NCBI GenBank assembly: GCA_017965425.1
Contig: JAGCPY010000031.1
Coordinates: forward strand, 1-60,406
Length of the DNA stretch: 60,406 nt
DNA from: Bacteroidaceae bacterium
GTDB taxonomy: Bacteria > Bacteroidota > Bacteroidia > Bacteroidales > Bacteroidaceae
Reading direction: 5' to 3'
The translations under genes and the position numbers were made by a program. Of the stretch, positions 890 through 21,214 are shown piece after piece. The notes beneath the pieces were generated by a model, which saw only the letters and a list, made by a program, of their open reading frames with translations, was not told the DNA's origin and did no database searches. The stretch's first letter is position 1; every line of letters begins with the position of its first letter.

Positions 890-946
890 GACCCACCCCC
901 TACAGCCCCCCCTTACCCCTCCTTGTGAGTGAGGGGAGCAGTCACC
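890..946 (+). repeat. Family-A palindromic repeat, upstream copy of pair 1
   Basis: A C-rich element beginning AGACCCACCCCC and ending GTGAGTGAGGGGAGCAG. It matches the reverse complement of 1018-1057, with a short extra C-rich stretch in the middle. It sits between the stop of the preceding gene and the start codon of the GH43-like gene, and can also fold on itself through CCCCTCC/GAGGGG. Confidence 0.8.
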
Positions 947-967
947 AATACTAAAATGAATTAACCA

Positions 968-2704
968 ATGAGATACAAGACCATTGCATATATACTTATT
1001 TCATTAGCACAGGTAATTACTCCCCTCCCTTATAGGGAGGGGCAAGGGGGTGGGTCCGTCAAGGGTGGATTTGGATGGAGTGGGTCTGCCCTTCATGCCC
1101 AATCCATCCACCCTGGCCAGACCTGGAACGACGTGAACGGTTCTGCCATCAACGCCCACGGCGGTTGTGTGGTCTATCATGACGGCAACTACTATTGGTT
1201 CGGTGAACAGCGCAACGGTAACAAGAGTGAAGGAATCAGTTGTTACCGCTCCAAGGATCTCTATTCGTGGACACGCCTAAGCCGTGCCGTCACACCCACC
1301 GGCACCATGACCGATGAGAATCGCGACATCGCCAGCGGCCGGACTCTCGAACGTCCAAAGGTCATTTGGAACGAAGCAACCCAGAAATGGGTGATGTGGA
1401 TCCACTGGGAAAACGGCAACGACTATGGTCAGGCCAAGAGCGCCGTGTGTGTGGCCGACAAGGTGGAAGGTCCATACTCACTTGTGGATGTCTTCCGTCC
1501 CAACAGTTGCGACGCACGTGACCAGACCGTTTTCGTAGATACCGACGGCACGGCATACCATGCCTATTCCACCAACATGAATAGTAATACCAACTGCGAA
1601 CGCCTCACCCCAGACTACCTTCGACCCGAATCGGACTTCACCGTTCAACTGAGAGGCCGTCGCTTCGAGGCCGCCGCGCTGTTCAAAGCAGGTGACATCT
1701 ACTACGGCCTCTTCTCCGGCTGCACAGGGTGGGACCCGAACCCAGGCCGCTACATGTGGACCTATGACCTTATGCAACAGACTTGGAATGCCCCTGCTGA
1801 CTTCAAGGCCAGCGATGGCTCCACGGGAATCAACTTCTGCATTGACAACGGCAAGAACACCAGCTACCAAAGCCAGAGCAACTTCGTGTTTCCCGTTCCA
1901 GGAAAGGACAAATGCTTTATCTACATGGGTGATCGTTGGAGTTCATCTAACGTGCAGTCCAGCAAGCATGTGTGGTTACCACTGAGCGTACGTTCGGGTT
2001 ACCCCACCGTCAGATGGTACGACAGCTGGACACTCTCTGTTTTCGATGAGATGTACCGCATGAAACGTATGAAGGCTATCGAGGATGGTGCGGAGGGTTA
2101 CCTTTTAGAAAAATACAGCAACCGCCTAGTGTCACGTCCGAAGAGCTCGCTGACGATTGAAGACGATGGCAGCTCGAACCTTACGCTCATCTTCCACAAG
2201 ACAGGCAAGCCTTACACGTACAAAATAGAGGATAAGGCAACGGGCAAGTACCTTGAAAGCGTCTTTGGCACTACCCGCTGGCAGATGGCTTCAGATGCCC
2301 TCACTCAGGAATGGGTGTTCTGGCTGGAGCAAGACGGGTACTTCAGGATAGAGAATGCCGATGATGGTGTGTGCCTTTCTGTCTCTGGCAACACGACAGA
2401 GTCAGGCACCACTCTTTATATGGCCTCTGCATCGAAGAATGTTCACCAGAGCTTTGCACCTTACTTCGACTCGACCGTTCATACCGATTATGAGGAAGCA
2501 GATATGTGGAGCCGAGGGTATCGAGAATCCAACCTTGAGAAAATGCGTCAGCAGCAGGAAGCGGTGGGGATTCAGGCCATGGTTTCTTACGGGAAAACCG
2601 TCGAACACGAACCGATGTCCTTTGATTTGCAAGGGCGACGAGTGTCTAAGGGGCTATGGCGTGGTCTCTTCATCATCAATGGCAAGAAAGTAATTATGAA
2701 ATGA
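968..2704 (+). CDS. Secreted GH43-like glycoside hydrolase with C-terminal ricin-like module
   Basis: 578 residues. After the signal region the sequence reads WNDVNGSAINAHGGCVVYH and YYWFGEQRNG, then LERPKVIWN, RDQTVFVDTDGTAYHAYS and GRRFEAAALFK. This is the five-bladed propeller pattern of GH43 enzymes close to the exo-beta-1,3-galactanase type. E234 is the likely general acid. The canonical catalytic-base Asp region is replaced by NAHGG, as in the galactanase-like GH43 subfamily that lacks the usual base. Residues ~390-500 resemble a ricin-type beta-trefoil. The protein ends SFDLQGRRV ... GKKVIMK, a short sorting-like tail. The signal peptide is split by an in-frame repeat (residues 18-30, PLPYREGQGGG) before ALHAQS. 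The stop overlaps the next start by ATGA, suggesting translational coupling. The exact substrate is not determinable here. Confidence 0.85.
   Translation: MRYKTIAYILISLAQVITPLPYREGQGGGSVKGGFGWSGSALHAQSIHPGQTWNDVNGSAINAHGGCVVYHDGNYYWFGEQRNGNKSEGISCYRSKDLYSWTRLSRAVTPTGTMTDENRDIASGRTLERPKVIWNEATQKWVMWIHWENGNDYGQAKSAVCVADKVEGPYSLVDVFRPNSCDARDQTVFVDTDGTAYHAYSTNMNSNTNCERLTPDYLRPESDFTVQLRGRRFEAAALFKAGDIYYGLFSGCTGWDPNPGRYMWTYDLMQQTWNAPADFKASDGSTGINFCIDNGKNTSYQSQSNFVFPVPGKDKCFIYMGDRWSSSNVQSSKHVWLPLSVRSGYPTVRWYDSWTLSVFDEMYRMKRMKAIEDGAEGYLLEKYSNRLVSRPKSSLTIEDDGSSNLTLIFHKTGKPYTYKIEDKATGKYLESVFGTTRWQMASDALTQEWVFWLEQDGYFRIENADDGVCLSVSGNTTESGTTLYMASASKNVHQSFAPYFDSTVHTDYEEADMWSRGYRESNLEKMRQQQEAVGIQAMVSYGKTVEHEPMSFDLQGRRVSKGLWRGLFIINGKKVIMK
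1018..1057 (-). repeat. Family-A repeat, downstream inverted copy of pair 1, inside the signal-peptide coding region
   Basis: TCCCCTCCCTTATAGGGAGG and the following GGGGGTGGGT are the inverted counterpart of 890-946. The copy is translated as residues ~18-30 (TPLPYREGQGGG) of the GH43-like protein, between the hydrophobic stretch and the probable cleavage site. Together with the upstream copy it encloses about 70 bases containing the start codon. Confidence 0.85.
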
Positions 2705-4497
2705 AACCGATGAGTACACGACCCGCCATAATGGAGTTTGCCAATCGTCCCATCCTCTTCGTCTCTGCCTTTGCAGCATACACGCTCGCACTGCTGTTGG
2801 GTGTGCTCAGCCCCTACCTGGTAGAGACGGCGGCCTTGACCCCCTTTTATACGAACGCGCCCATCAGTGAAATTTTAGGGAGTCCGTGCGGGTTGTTACT
2901 CTATGTCGCTTCAGGCTGTCAGCGCTGCATGGTGTATCCCTGGTTGGGTGCCAGCCTATTCACTGCCCTTCTAATAGCGATGGCTTTTGTTTTGAGATGG
3001 GCATTTCGTGTGAGCGATGCTTGGTTCGGACTCTGCTGGATTCCGTCATTTGCATTGTTGGTCAACTACACACAGTTAGGTTATCTCATTTATACCGTCA
3101 AGCATCCCGCAATTGCTTTTGCAGAACCATTAGGCCTACTCATTGCTTTCTGCCTGATTGGTCTTTGGTATCGCCTAAACGATTGGCGGTGGAAGGTAGC
3201 TTTCATGCTGTTAGTACCCACAGTAGGCTTCTGGCTGTTTGGGTTCTTTGGCTTAGTTGTTCTTCCTTTCCTGGGTTTTTGCGAATTAGCTATCGCCCGT
3301 TTCCTGCTTTCTAATCAACCAACAGGGAAAAAATCCTGGCCTCAGTTTCTGTGGGGTCTTTCTTTGTTTCTTGCTGGTTTCCTCTTGCCCGTTATTCTGC
3401 GAGCAGTACTGCAGCTACAAATAGACATTGAAATGGGGCACGTCTCTTTCACCAATGACCAGCGTGACATGCGCAATCCTTGGTTTATCGCCTATCTTTT
3501 CCCTACAGCTTTCGCCTGTTTCCGCTTCGTAGGGAAGAAATTTTGGATGACGATTGTTGCGGCAGTTGTCTTCGTGGCCTTGGCCATTGCCGCTTACACC
3601 TACTCCTTCCGCGACCCGAACTTCCTCAACACATTGAAAATGAAACATGCTGCAGAGGCAGGGAAGTGGGAACAAGTTCTGCAGTTGGCAAACGAGAATC
3701 AAAAAGAGCCCACTCGCGCACAAGTCTGCCTCACTCGCCTTGCACTCTTCAAAACGGGCCGCATGGGCGACGAACTCTTCACCTACCCGGAAGGCTCTGC
3801 AGCCTACAATGCACCGCAACAAAATCAGTGGCTCCGACTGATGATTGGTCCGCTGCTCTATTACCACTACGGCAAACTCGGCTTCGCCTACCGCTGGGCA
3901 ATGGAAGACTTGGTAGAATATGGTGAACGACCAGCCTATCTCCGTTACCTGCTCAACGTGGCCTGCCTCAATGGCGAAGAAGCACTCGCGCACCGCTACG
4001 AACGTGCGCTCACGCGTACCTTATTTAATGATGATGTACAAAAGGAAGTGGAAAAAGAAGTGAATGCCATCCGCCCCCTCCTCAACTTCAACGACCAGCT
4101 CGACGGTGACAATGGTCTCGTGGAGTTCTACCTCCTCAATAGTTTTTCCCTCAGCCAAGGTGGTTCTCGTGAAATGGTGGAACTCTCCCTGATGAATAGC
4201 CTTATCACCAAGAACCTCACAGGTTTCTGGCATCGCTTCATGGCATTGCTTCCAACTTGGCAAGGGCGTATACCCACTCATTACCAGGAGGCCGCCCTCA
4301 TGGTGGCTCAGCTCCAAGGTGCCTCCCCTGTCCCCGACCTCCCTGTTGATCCAACCATTCAACAACGATTCCAACGTCTCATCGACGCATCTGCCCGTAG
4401 GGGCGACAATGCGGCAAACGCCATTGCCCTGCGTCCTGAATTTGGCAACACCTACTGGTACTATTATTTCTTTGTAGAAGGACTCAAAACAAACTAA
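2701..4497 (+). CDS. Polytopic membrane protein with helical C-terminal half (DUF6057-like)
   Basis: 598 residues from ATG 2701, chosen because it overlaps the previous stop as ATGA; an in-frame ATG at 2656 lies inside the GH43 gene and is less likely. The N-terminal ~330 residues contain about eight to ten hydrophobic segments (from ILFVSAFAAYTLALLLGV onward). The C-terminal ~250 residues are soluble and alpha-helical, with repeat-like character (KMKHAAEAGKWEQVLQLANENQ ... RAQVCLTRLALFKTGRMGD), suggesting TPR-like packing outside the membrane. The layout resembles the Bacteroidales DUF6057 family, which I recall as having no assigned function. It is followed after 65 bp by the haem-motif propeller lipoprotein, so the two may work as a pair. 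Assignment to the DUF is from memory and moderately sure; the membrane topology is clear. Confidence 0.75.
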   Translation: MKPMSTRPAIMEFANRPILFVSAFAAYTLALLLGVLSPYLVETAALTPFYTNAPISEILGSPCGLLLYVASGCQRCMVYPWLGASLFTALLIAMAFVLRWAFRVSDAWFGLCWIPSFALLVNYTQLGYLIYTVKHPAIAFAEPLGLLIAFCLIGLWYRLNDWRWKVAFMLLVPTVGFWLFGFFGLVVLPFLGFCELAIARFLLSNQPTGKKSWPQFLWGLSLFLAGFLLPVILRAVLQLQIDIEMGHVSFTNDQRDMRNPWFIAYLFPTAFACFRFVGKKFWMTIVAAVVFVALAIAAYTYSFRDPNFLNTLKMKHAAEAGKWEQVLQLANENQKEPTRAQVCLTRLALFKTGRMGDELFTYPEGSAAYNAPQQNQWLRLMIGPLLYYHYGKLGFAYRWAMEDLVEYGERPAYLRYLLNVACLNGEEALAHRYERALTRTLFNDDVQKEVEKEVNAIRPLLNFNDQLDGDNGLVEFYLLNSFSLSQGGSREMVELSLMNSLITKNLTGFWHRFMALLPTWQGRIPTHYQEAALMVAQLQGASPVPDLPVDPTIQQRFQRLIDASARRGDNAANAIALRPEFGNTYWYYYFFVEGLKTN

Positions 4498-4537
4498 GAC
4501 CCACCCCCTTAATCCTTCCCTGTGAGGGAGGGGAGCA
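4498..4537 (+). repeat. Family-A repeat, upstream copy of pair 2
   Basis: GACCCACCCCCTTAATCC followed by TTCCCTGTGAGGGAGGGG and AGC. It matches the reverse complement of 4603-4645 at roughly 37 of 40 positions, the best-preserved pair in the window. It begins directly after the TAA of the membrane-protein gene. Confidence 0.9.
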
Positions 4538-4562
4538 GATACCAACAGCATATAGAGATGCG

Positions 4563-6212
4563 ATGAAAGAGAGTAAGAGTATATCCAAGAGTTACAGAAA
4601 ACCGCTCCCCTCCCTCACAGGGAGGGATAAGGGAGTGGGTCTGCTACTGCTGCTTTTGTCACTCATTGCCTGCTCACCCTCCCTCCCCGAGCAATTTGAG
4701 GAAGTGACGTGGCGGGCATCGATAACGCCTGATAACTTCGGTGCCACGCTACCGCCGAACATTGCACCGCTGAACTTCCGCATCCTGCGAGGTGATGCCG
4801 ACGAGGCCGTGACGTGCATCCATTCTGAGAAGGGTGGTGAAATCATAGTCGGTGGATGGAACGTAAGTTTTGATGAAGACGATTGGCACCGGTTGCTTGA
4901 CCTGACACGCGGCGACAGTCTTTACGTTGACATCTACATGAAGGCTTACGGCCATTGGGAGCACCTCCCCACTCTGTCCTATTTCATCGCTAACGAGCCG
5001 ATTGATTCTTACATCACCTACCGTCATATTCGCCCTTCATACGTCACTTACGAAGAATTGACTCTGCACGAACGCTGTCTGGAAAGCTTTGATGAGCGGG
5101 TGATTTATGAGAACATGAGATTCAAAGATAGCAACCAAGGCCAGTGCATCAACTGCCACCTGCCACGCAATTGGAACCGCGAAGCACAGAGTCAGTTTCA
5201 TGTGCGACAGGCCTTTGGCGGCACCGTCTTCATTCACGGCGACCAAGTCACAAAAATCAACCTCAAGACCGATTCAACCCTCAGCGCCGGCGTCTATCCC
5301 GCCTGGCATCCCACGCAGAACCTCATCGCCTACTCCGTCAACGAGACGGGGCAGGTCTTCCACACCTTAGACCCACAGAAGATAGAAGTCATAGACTATG
5401 CCAGCGACCTCATCCTCTATAACCTCGATGAGAACACTGTTCAGCACATAGACCATACGGCCTTGGAGTTCGAGAGTTTCCCCACCTGGTCTCCAGACGG
5501 CAACACCCTTTATTACATATCCGCTCACTACACTTGTCGCGCCGACGACATCGATGCCGACCTGGACACCAACTATGACCAGTTGCACTACAACATCTAT
5601 GCCCGCGACTTCGACCAGCAAACTCATCGCTTCGGGCCGCGTCGTCTTGTATTCGATGCCGAGGCCATTGGCAAGAGCGCCAGCACGCCACGTGTCTCTC
5701 CAGACGGCAAATACATCCTCTTCACTTTGGCCGATTATGGGCAGTTTCACATCTGGCATAAGAGCGCAGACCTTGTGATTATCAGCCTAAATCCAGAAGG
5801 CTTCAGTTCAGATTGTTTCACCCTAGAAAGCCTCAACTCTCCCGAGTCTGAGAGCTACCACTCCTGGAGTTCCAATGGTCGATGGATACTCTTTTCTTCC
5901 CGTCGCGATGACGGCAACTACACTCGACTCTATATCAGTTACTTTGATAGCGACGGCCACGTCCACAAGCCTTTCCGTCTGCCCCAACAATCCTCCGACA
6001 CAGATGACTTGCTACTTCGCAGCTACAACGCAGCTGAGTTTCTAGTGCAACCCTTGCAGCCCACCCAAAGACAACTGCGCCGAGCCATTAAAACCGATGC
6101 CCGACCCGCAACATACACTGGTTCGGCCCTTCTCCACTTCGAGACAGACAGCGCCTCCTTCCTACCTGTCAATCCTGCTGTAGACCGCCGCAGAGAGAGC
6201 GTGGGTTATTAA
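4563..6212 (+). CDS. Beta-propeller (PD40/TolB-like) lipoprotein with a c-type haem motif
   Basis: 549 residues. The N terminus has a repeat-encoded insertion (residues 14-26, PLPSLTGRDKGVG), then LLLLLLSLIAC with the lipobox Cys at 37. Residues ~45-150 form a beta-rich domain. C195-I-N-C198-H199 is a CxxCH haem-attachment motif in NQGQCINCHLPRNW. From ~215 on, TolB/PD40-type blades recur (WHPTQNLIAYS, FPTWSPDGNTLYYIS, PRVSPDGKYILFT, HSWSSNGRWILFSS). The protein is predicted to be anchored on the periplasmic or outer side of the envelope. Homologous Bacteroidales proteins with the QFHVRQ region next to CxxCH exist as far as I recall, but their role is not established. The neighbouring polytopic membrane protein is a candidate partner. 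Whether haem is really attached depends on cytochrome c maturation genes not in this window. Confidence 0.8.
   Translation: MKESKSISKSYRKPLPSLTGRDKGVGLLLLLLSLIACSPSLPEQFEEVTWRASITPDNFGATLPPNIAPLNFRILRGDADEAVTCIHSEKGGEIIVGGWNVSFDEDDWHRLLDLTRGDSLYVDIYMKAYGHWEHLPTLSYFIANEPIDSYITYRHIRPSYVTYEELTLHERCLESFDERVIYENMRFKDSNQGQCINCHLPRNWNREAQSQFHVRQAFGGTVFIHGDQVTKINLKTDSTLSAGVYPAWHPTQNLIAYSVNETGQVFHTLDPQKIEVIDYASDLILYNLDENTVQHIDHTALEFESFPTWSPDGNTLYYISAHYTCRADDIDADLDTNYDQLHYNIYARDFDQQTHRFGPRRLVFDAEAIGKSASTPRVSPDGKYILFTLADYGQFHIWHKSADLVIISLNPEGFSSDCFTLESLNSPESESYHSWSSNGRWILFSSRRDDGNYTRLYISYFDSDGHVHKPFRLPQQSSDTDDLLLRSYNAAEFLVQPLQPTQRQLRRAIKTDARPATYTGSALLHFETDSASFLPVNPAVDRRRESVGY
4603..4645 (-). repeat. Family-A repeat, downstream inverted copy of pair 2, inside the signal-peptide coding region
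   Basis: GCTCCCCTCCCTCACAGGGA then GGGATAAGGGAGTGGGTCT. It is the inverted counterpart of 4498-4537, with the start codon (4563) lying between the two. It is translated as KPLPSLTGRDKGVG in the n-region of the lipoprotein signal peptide, directly before the hydrophobic core. Confidence 0.9.
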
Positions 6213-21099: not shown

Positions 21100-21123
21100 A
21101 AGACCTACCCTAAAAACCCAGCA

Positions 21124-21172
21124 ACAGACCAATTCCCCGCCCTCTCTGTAAGGGAGGGGGCGGTTACCTTCA
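21124..21172 (+). repeat. Family-A-like repeat, upstream copy of pair 3
   Basis: GACCAATTCCCCGCCCTCTC then TGTAAGGGAGGGGGCGGTTA. It aligns with the reverse complement of 21281-21330 through CTCTCTGT and AGGGAGG and the flanking TTACC. It is more diverged from pairs 1 and 2 but keeps the GGGAGGGG palindrome. Confidence 0.7.
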
Positions 21173-21214
21173 AGAATTGAAACATAAGAGACTTCCTAAA
21201 CTGAACAAATAGAT

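Follow-up and report, generated by a model that had tools for sequence, protein, structure and literature searches.

The window analysed here comprises positions 1 to 60,406 of contig JAGCPY010000031.1 of a Bacteroidaceae bacterium, and the present study is focused on a pair of inverted repeat arms that encloses the start codon of one of its lipoprotein genes (Table 1). The two arms, an upstream reverse copy (L) and a downstream forward copy (R), are identical at 37 of 40 aligned positions (93%; two mismatches and one gap), with an ungapped core of 30 nt at 90% identity in a repeat search, and thus form the near-perfect inverted pair described in the initial annotation of the sequence. The same annotation correctly placed the start codon between the copies, since the lipoprotein ATG lies inside the 67-nt loop separating them, and correctly regarded the downstream copy as translated within the signal peptide, where it follows the charged start, precedes the hydrophobic part, and reads in frame as KPLPSLTGRDKGVG. 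The first base of the upstream arm is the final base of the stop codon TAA (4495-4497) of the preceding gene. Within the window, the core palindrome, with up to 3 mismatches allowed, gives seven matches at five places where 0.00 would be expected, and another pair of this type encloses the ATG at 968 of a gene encoding a GH43/ricin-B-lectin-domain protein. An Rfam scan of the window returned tRNAs and the Bacteroidales signal recognition particle (SRP) RNA alone, with no match at the lipoprotein start at the gathering threshold.

Table 1. Coordinates of the two repeat pairs and the adjoining genes in the window.
Feature	Position	Strand	Basis or remark
L copy, palindromic repeat, reverse	4497..4536	-	adjoins upstream stop; model match C24:4492-4553, 56.2 bits
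Loop between copies	4537..4603	+	probably native 5' leader and first codons (by eye)
Lipoprotein start codon	4563..4565	+	open reading frame (ORF) reading
R copy, forward palindromic repeat, between signal-peptide n-region and h-region	4604..4642	+	model match C24:4587-4647, 59.9 bits
Lipoprotein, PD40 beta-propeller repeats and CxxCH motif	4563..6212	+	ORF and domain search
Upstream co-directional gene, DUF6057 (PF19529)	2656..4497	+	ORF and domain search
Second pair, L copy	899..956	-	core pattern and model match
Second pair, R copy, in-frame VITPLPYREGQGGGSV, signal peptide region of GH43/ricin-B-lectin-domain protein	1002..1062	+	model match and ORF

The arm pair is not a gene-specific switch; each arm is a copy of a repeat dispersed through the genome. 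A pattern derived from the arms finds 28 genome copies at up to 3 mismatches versus 0 for a reversed control pattern, and a covariance model (R1) built from 27 copies gives 127 genome matches at E ≤ 0.1, of which 97 reach E ≤ 0.001; the scoring covered 150 of the 956 first-look candidates. The repeat unit spans approximately 50 nt and consists of AAAGGTAACTA, then CTCCCCTCCCT-NNN-AGGGAGGGG, then CAGGGGGGTGGGTCT. Across 72 copies, conservation ends approximately 11 nt inside the inner end of the copy, and the sequence between paired copies is therefore not shared. Model R1 matches 23 of the 37 genus genomes examined versus 1 of 24 outside the genus; the closest named relatives are Bacteroidales genomes, many of them from the rumen. 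A lone, weaker copy (26.1 bits in the model) was also noted at 21121-21178 of the window.

The copies are arranged with a consistent geometry. Among neighbouring copies less than 400 nt apart, 42 of 43 pairs face each other, the exception being one +/- neighbour at 391 nt. Co-directional genes flank 34 of the 42 facing pairs and the other 8 lie inside one gene, while none of the 42 is found between convergent or divergent genes. The usual layout is a stop codon, a reverse L copy, a loop with the ATG, a forward R copy, and the body of the next gene. An ATG in the loop together with an in-frame R copy was assigned by script to 25 of the 42 pairs, 21 of which are in the frame reading TPLPAREGQGGGS; the script took the wrong strand for the tsaD pair at least, a pair that is also part of this set, and it labelled C21:26882, C69:5282, and C69:17205 otherwise than direct reading, which places them mid-ORF. 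For tsaD, valS, and fmt, translation has to include R, as the reading frame offers no ATG, GTG, or TTG from R up to the conserved residues of the N-terminus. The palindrome is found in frame in five conserved proteins, AsnB, GltB, TsaD, ValRS, and Fmt. In AsnB, a 36-residue in-frame insert replaces 2 residues of Escherichia coli AsnB (1ct9), and in GltB, the inserts encoded by L and R flank a segment that aligns to 7mfm; since this segment is native, a pair enclosing it is not the product expected from ordinary insertion of a single unit. The fmt gene of the same genome (L131:2623-3747) was additionally observed to carry, besides its N-terminal copy, a second in-frame palindrome-like insert near the C-terminus.

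Comparison of orthologous loci indicates that the copies are insertions and not ancestral features of these genes. At 27 lipoprotein orthologues, model R1, which covers one palindrome family and may miss others at these starts, finds no match at the start in 24, the complete pair in two (L148 and L151), and R alone in one (L165). As judged by eye among 25 of the 27 starts, several orthologues lacking copies begin M-K-x-x-x-S-I or similar, resembling MKESKSISKSYR of the window, and the loop between the arms is therefore probably the native 5' leader and first codons of the gene. The orthologue in L139, which has no copies at its start, carries a facing pair inside the gene at 4169-4295. For tsaD, the reading by eye covered 29 of the 30 genus loci fetched: in most, the stop codon of the preceding gene is closely followed by a short native start, whereas L and R are both present in L282 and L292, L alone in L287, and R-like inserts of differing palindrome families in L283, L284, and L303, and less clearly in L286 and L291. 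Furthermore, six genomes carry extra in-frame sequence close to residue 125 of TsaD, comprising L and R in L352 and L355, an L-like palindrome in L353, and other sequence in L354, L356, and L357; in L352, a native loop, SQSS..NDSAP by eye, lies between L and R, comparable to SQDDNSAP of the TsaD of the genome under study. These loci show repeated insertion at the same gene start (tsaD) and in the same protein loop. Short tandem arrays (ATTGAAG.., TTCATAG.., GCAAGGA..) were also seen by eye at the same junctions or the TsaD loop in L149, L298, L299, L356, and L357.

The initial annotation had further suggested that the copies pair into a long stem in the mRNA or fold separately, as two alternative states serving either translational control or left by a small mobile element. 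The long arm-to-arm stem is indeed the predicted minimum free energy structure of 4480-4660 (-86.1 kcal/mol; z -9.24; equalled by 0 of 200 shuffles). Separate folding is predicted for one arm of the two: the downstream arm on its own is more stable than its shuffles (-26.2; z -3.62), whereas the upstream arm on its own has no such advantage (-13.2; z 0.07), which speaks against the two-state reading. Under a regulatory origin, the 39-bp stem would hide the lipoprotein start, local hairpins would release it, and the two states would have been selected; consistent with this, partners share their loop letters in 8 of the 19 usable pairs among the 42 versus 3.9 expected. Intrapair identity is nevertheless moderate only, with 4 of 5000 permutations as high in a first test and 34 of 5000 in the second, made on these 19 pairs, and no proof of stem function is drawn from it. 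Conservation at orthologous genes, as expected of a cis-regulatory RNA switch, is contradicted by the 24 of 27 lipoprotein starts with no match, an outcome close to the one that the initial annotation had named as speaking against a switch; the tsaD orthologues with L alone or R alone (by eye), and the identical pair layout mid-ORF and ahead of unrelated housekeeping genes, argue in the same direction. Selection for translational control is accordingly a very unlikely reason for the pair, to which it could at most be secondary, while the mobile-element footprint is well supported and can probably be specified further as that of a dispersed palindromic insertion element.

A candidate for the parent element is found among the pairs of the genome. 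Two pairs with gaps of 301 and 390 nt each enclose a gene of the DUF559 family, one intact and the other internally deleted; a matching inverted repeat is present in the flanks of all four DUF559 genes of the genome, and model R1 copies lie on both sides of three of them. DUF559 is present in 37 of 61 genus genomes. The flanks of the fetched nuclease loci, which are the best-scoring ones, were scored for inverted repeats against a threshold of 33, fixed after the first scores had been seen, and against shuffles in which 2-base blocks of the downstream flank were permuted. From 32 genus loci entered (the broken copy L222/L223 of the own genome being excluded and L230 dropped for short flanks), 26 of 31 score at least 33 in the oriented test and 29 of 31 exceed the best of 100 shuffles, versus 0 of 60 offset controls by either measure; an earlier test in contig orientation had 28 of 33 loci beating shuffles. 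In the repeat-rich stretches of the own genome, 4 of 167 called genes reach 33, among them one DUF559 gene and one GxxExxY nuclease, the crude gene caller having missed the C25 and C17 DUF559 genes and C26 lying outside the stretches, which leaves one DUF559 gene among the 167. At each bracketed DUF559 locus, L and R belong to one family. The R copy of the same locus is the best partner of L in 17 of 17 loci, a result that is partly built in because L and R were chosen as the best match within each locus.

The association extends beyond the genus. In the phylum, DUF559 is present in 78 of 148 genomes, and 18 of 29 fetched loci beat shuffles, this comparison being the only one applied. Several of the genes lie in frame within other genes: in metH, where two genera share the site (L268 and L273) and both loci have flanking repeats that exceed shuffles; in leuS, where a site is again shared by two genera (L255 and L257), the flank test being negative at both, and where L279 uses a different site, with repeats just above shuffles; and in restriction-modification genes, above shuffles in L258, L260, and L265 and not in L253. 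Relative to solved homologues of MetH and LeuRS, the DUF559 domains are interruptions, and they match 3hrl, which is endonuclease-like. On plasmids of Cyanobacteriota, Deinococcota, and Alphaproteobacteria, 7 of 10 DUF559 loci, our own choice from 25 listed of 44 records, beat shuffles and 5 of these score at least 33, versus 0 of 20 controls; L344 and L345 beat shuffles only, and L346 has a repeat of more than 100 nt whose palindrome character is not established. The same hpa cluster holds a DUF559 gene framed by palindromes in two Deinococcus plasmids (L347 and L348), its place within the cluster differing between them. As a profile, DUF559 matches 3hrl (E 5.9e-29) and 3r3p, annotated as "Mobile intron protein" (E 2.9e-8), and its similarity to Vsr (TIGR00632; E 0.0013) is below the family cut-off. 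That leuS and metH each carry the insertion at a site shared by two genera is compatible with homing.

Taken together, these observations suggest, with a probability of roughly 0.6, that the window arms are the facing L and R ends, approximately 50 nt each, of a small insertion element, present here in a nuclease-less form around the native lipoprotein start. The complete element would carry, between L and R, a gene for a PD-(D/E)XK nuclease of approximately 125 residues of the DUF559 family, and this nuclease would supply mobility to the palindromes in trans. In the least certain step of the proposed mechanism, the nuclease would nick each strand once, at positions offset by some tens of nucleotides, and each nick would take up one single-stranded copy of the palindrome. 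With the same strand inserted on opposite strands at the two nicks, the resulting copies would invariably face each other and leave the original sequence in the middle, and a solitary nick would yield a single copy; paired offset nicks would thus explain the facing pairs, the retained native sequence, and the single copies. Insertions would persist where harm is small, namely immediately downstream of a stop codon, among the first codons, or within loops, for the most part in the frame TPLPAREGQGGGS, which would read as a soluble linker.

Several points weigh against this explanation. The role of the nuclease in mobility is deduced from association, and association is not mobility; furthermore, a pair around native sequence differs from the outcome of single-unit insertion. 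Only 2 of the 42 pairs of the genome enclose a DUF559 gene, one of which is internally deleted, and most pairs thus have no direct tie to the nuclease. The genus loci are not independent, the 27 bracketed loci representing 17 different sites. Repeat families differ among DUF559 loci, the C25 gene of the same genome being framed by another family, and the similarity of the DUF559 proteins is uncorrelated with that of their palindromes (Mantel r 0.11; 758 of 5000 permutations as high). At 11 of the 29 phylum loci, including the in-frame LeuRS loci L255 and L257, and at 3 of the 10 plasmid loci (L343, L350, and L351), no flanking repeat was found to beat shuffles. Finally, the pattern recurs in weaker form for GxxExxY nucleases, whose repeats are quite different: 13 of 23 loci score at least 33 and 17 of 23 exceed shuffles, versus 0 of 43 controls; 27 of 30 fetched loci entered this test (L336-L338 being excluded) and 4 were dropped for short flanks. 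Such bracketing could be typical of small nucleases in general, or it could mean that the nucleases are passengers. In the genus, the GxxExxY (PDDEXK_3) genes (L119:1138-1569; L312-L341) are often bracketed by inverted, mostly AT-rich repeats, for example, AACGGATTAAACGGATT.

The absence of DUF559 from most pairs, the uncorrelated similarities of protein and palindrome, and the occurrence of two nuclease families with different repeats would all be expected if the palindromes spread by other means and the DUF559 and GxxExxY genes were cargo carried or inserted between existing copies rather than the mover. Such a passenger relation is unlikely, as the single L/R family at each bracketed locus, with families differing between loci, and the recurrence of the bracketing across phyla are hard to obtain by insertion between pre-existing copies. 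Template switching, in which a single palindrome is inserted and its facing partner arises as an inverted copy by replication slippage, with later homogenisation, would account for the 42 of 43 inverted and facing close neighbours and for partners somewhat more alike than shuffled partners; however, it also predicts back-to-back pairs, and the close neighbours include a single +/- case, 391 nt apart; moreover, the loops differ in 11 of the 19 usable pairs, while both partners have complete and similar ends. This origin is therefore highly improbable.

It is likewise only a slim prospect that the copies are repetitive extragenic palindromic (REP) sequences moved by a REP-associated tyrosine transposase (RAYT) of the Y1/HUH type, as in REPINs and REPtrons. 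The copies do resemble REPs as these have been described, being palindromic, approximately 50 nt long, and of high copy number, with dimers and intragenic copies (PMC3733652), and the genome has two RAYT-like Y1_Tnp matches (L009 and L010). Both genes are, however, flanked by a different repeat, GCCCAGGGC..GCCCTGGGTA, and by eye no copy of the start-pair repeat lies near either gene in the stretches read; RAYT-moved REPs were set aside as a candidate on this ground. The terminal GTAG tag is, furthermore, exact in only 22 of 124 copies, G[TC][AG]G being present in 69 of 124. The palindromic repeat surrounding both Y1_Tnp genes also includes GCCCTGAAAGGGC (by eye).

Beyond the window, the observations may point to a widespread and so far unnamed class of bacterial insertion element, for which we would put the chances slightly short of even: a free-standing Vsr-like nuclease of the DUF559 family, bordered by facing palindromes, would insert in frame in and between essential genes, be tolerated as a protein domain in MetH and probably LeuRS, and leave abundant nuclease-less pairs that rewrite N-termini, possibly by paired nicking of opposite strands, with GxxExxY nucleases perhaps running a parallel system with other repeats. 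If this is true, DUF559, filed in Pfam as of unknown function, would gain a job, the odd in-frame peptides (TPLPAREGQGGGS and its kin) at N-termini and in protein loops would be explained, and a mobile element would be living inside essential coding sequence without shown splicing.

Features of several known systems are combined in these repeats, which behave within proteins as a Rickettsia palindromic element does and frame a gene as in a REPtron, though with a different enzyme. REPs, their dimers, intragenic copies, and RAYT-bearing REPtrons have already been described, and that account presents REP, BIME (bacterial interspersed mosaic element), and REPIN systems with their RAYT as small, high-copy palindromes that are paired, sometimes intragenic, and frame a presumed mover gene (PMC3733652). 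The present family shares the short, high-copy, often dimeric palindrome (127 matches; 42 facing pairs); however, the gene framed here encodes a PD-(D/E)XK nuclease in place of a Y1 transposase, copies close to each other are paired only face to face, many of these pairs are located at start codons and are translated, and the GTAG tag, which most REP members would carry, is weak. Neither Y1_Tnp locus has the flanking repeat of a REPtron (by eye). Rickettsia palindromic elements, as outlined in the same source, are likewise in-frame palindromes in protein genes, N-terminal positions included (PMC3733652), as is the palindrome in the five conserved proteins named above; they differ in belonging to another phylum, whereas the copies here are paired around native sequence in some genes and linked to a candidate nuclease. 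Miniature inverted-repeat transposable elements (MITEs) are similar as short, non-autonomous units with inverted (facing) ends and a plausible parent element, although the sequence between the ends is here unique or, in GltB and TsaD, native.

For the nuclease itself, the closest known systems include free-standing homing endonuclease genes (Vsr/EDxHD; 3r3p), to which it is linked by the DUF559 profile matches given above and the same-site occurrence of DUF559 in two genera in leuS and metH; palindromic ends, many nuclease-less copies, and in-frame insertion without an intron or shown splicing set the present elements apart. A DUF559 domain has been reported in a Vsr-like Caulobacter protein, in a passage that does not mention repeats (PMC12907096), and no link of DUF559 to palindromic repeats was found in the titles and abstract openings of the literature searched. 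Some bacterial palindromic repeat families are described as having no known mover (PMC3733652), and a palindrome-framed nuclease gene recurring in several phyla provides a concrete and testable mover candidate for repeats of this kind.

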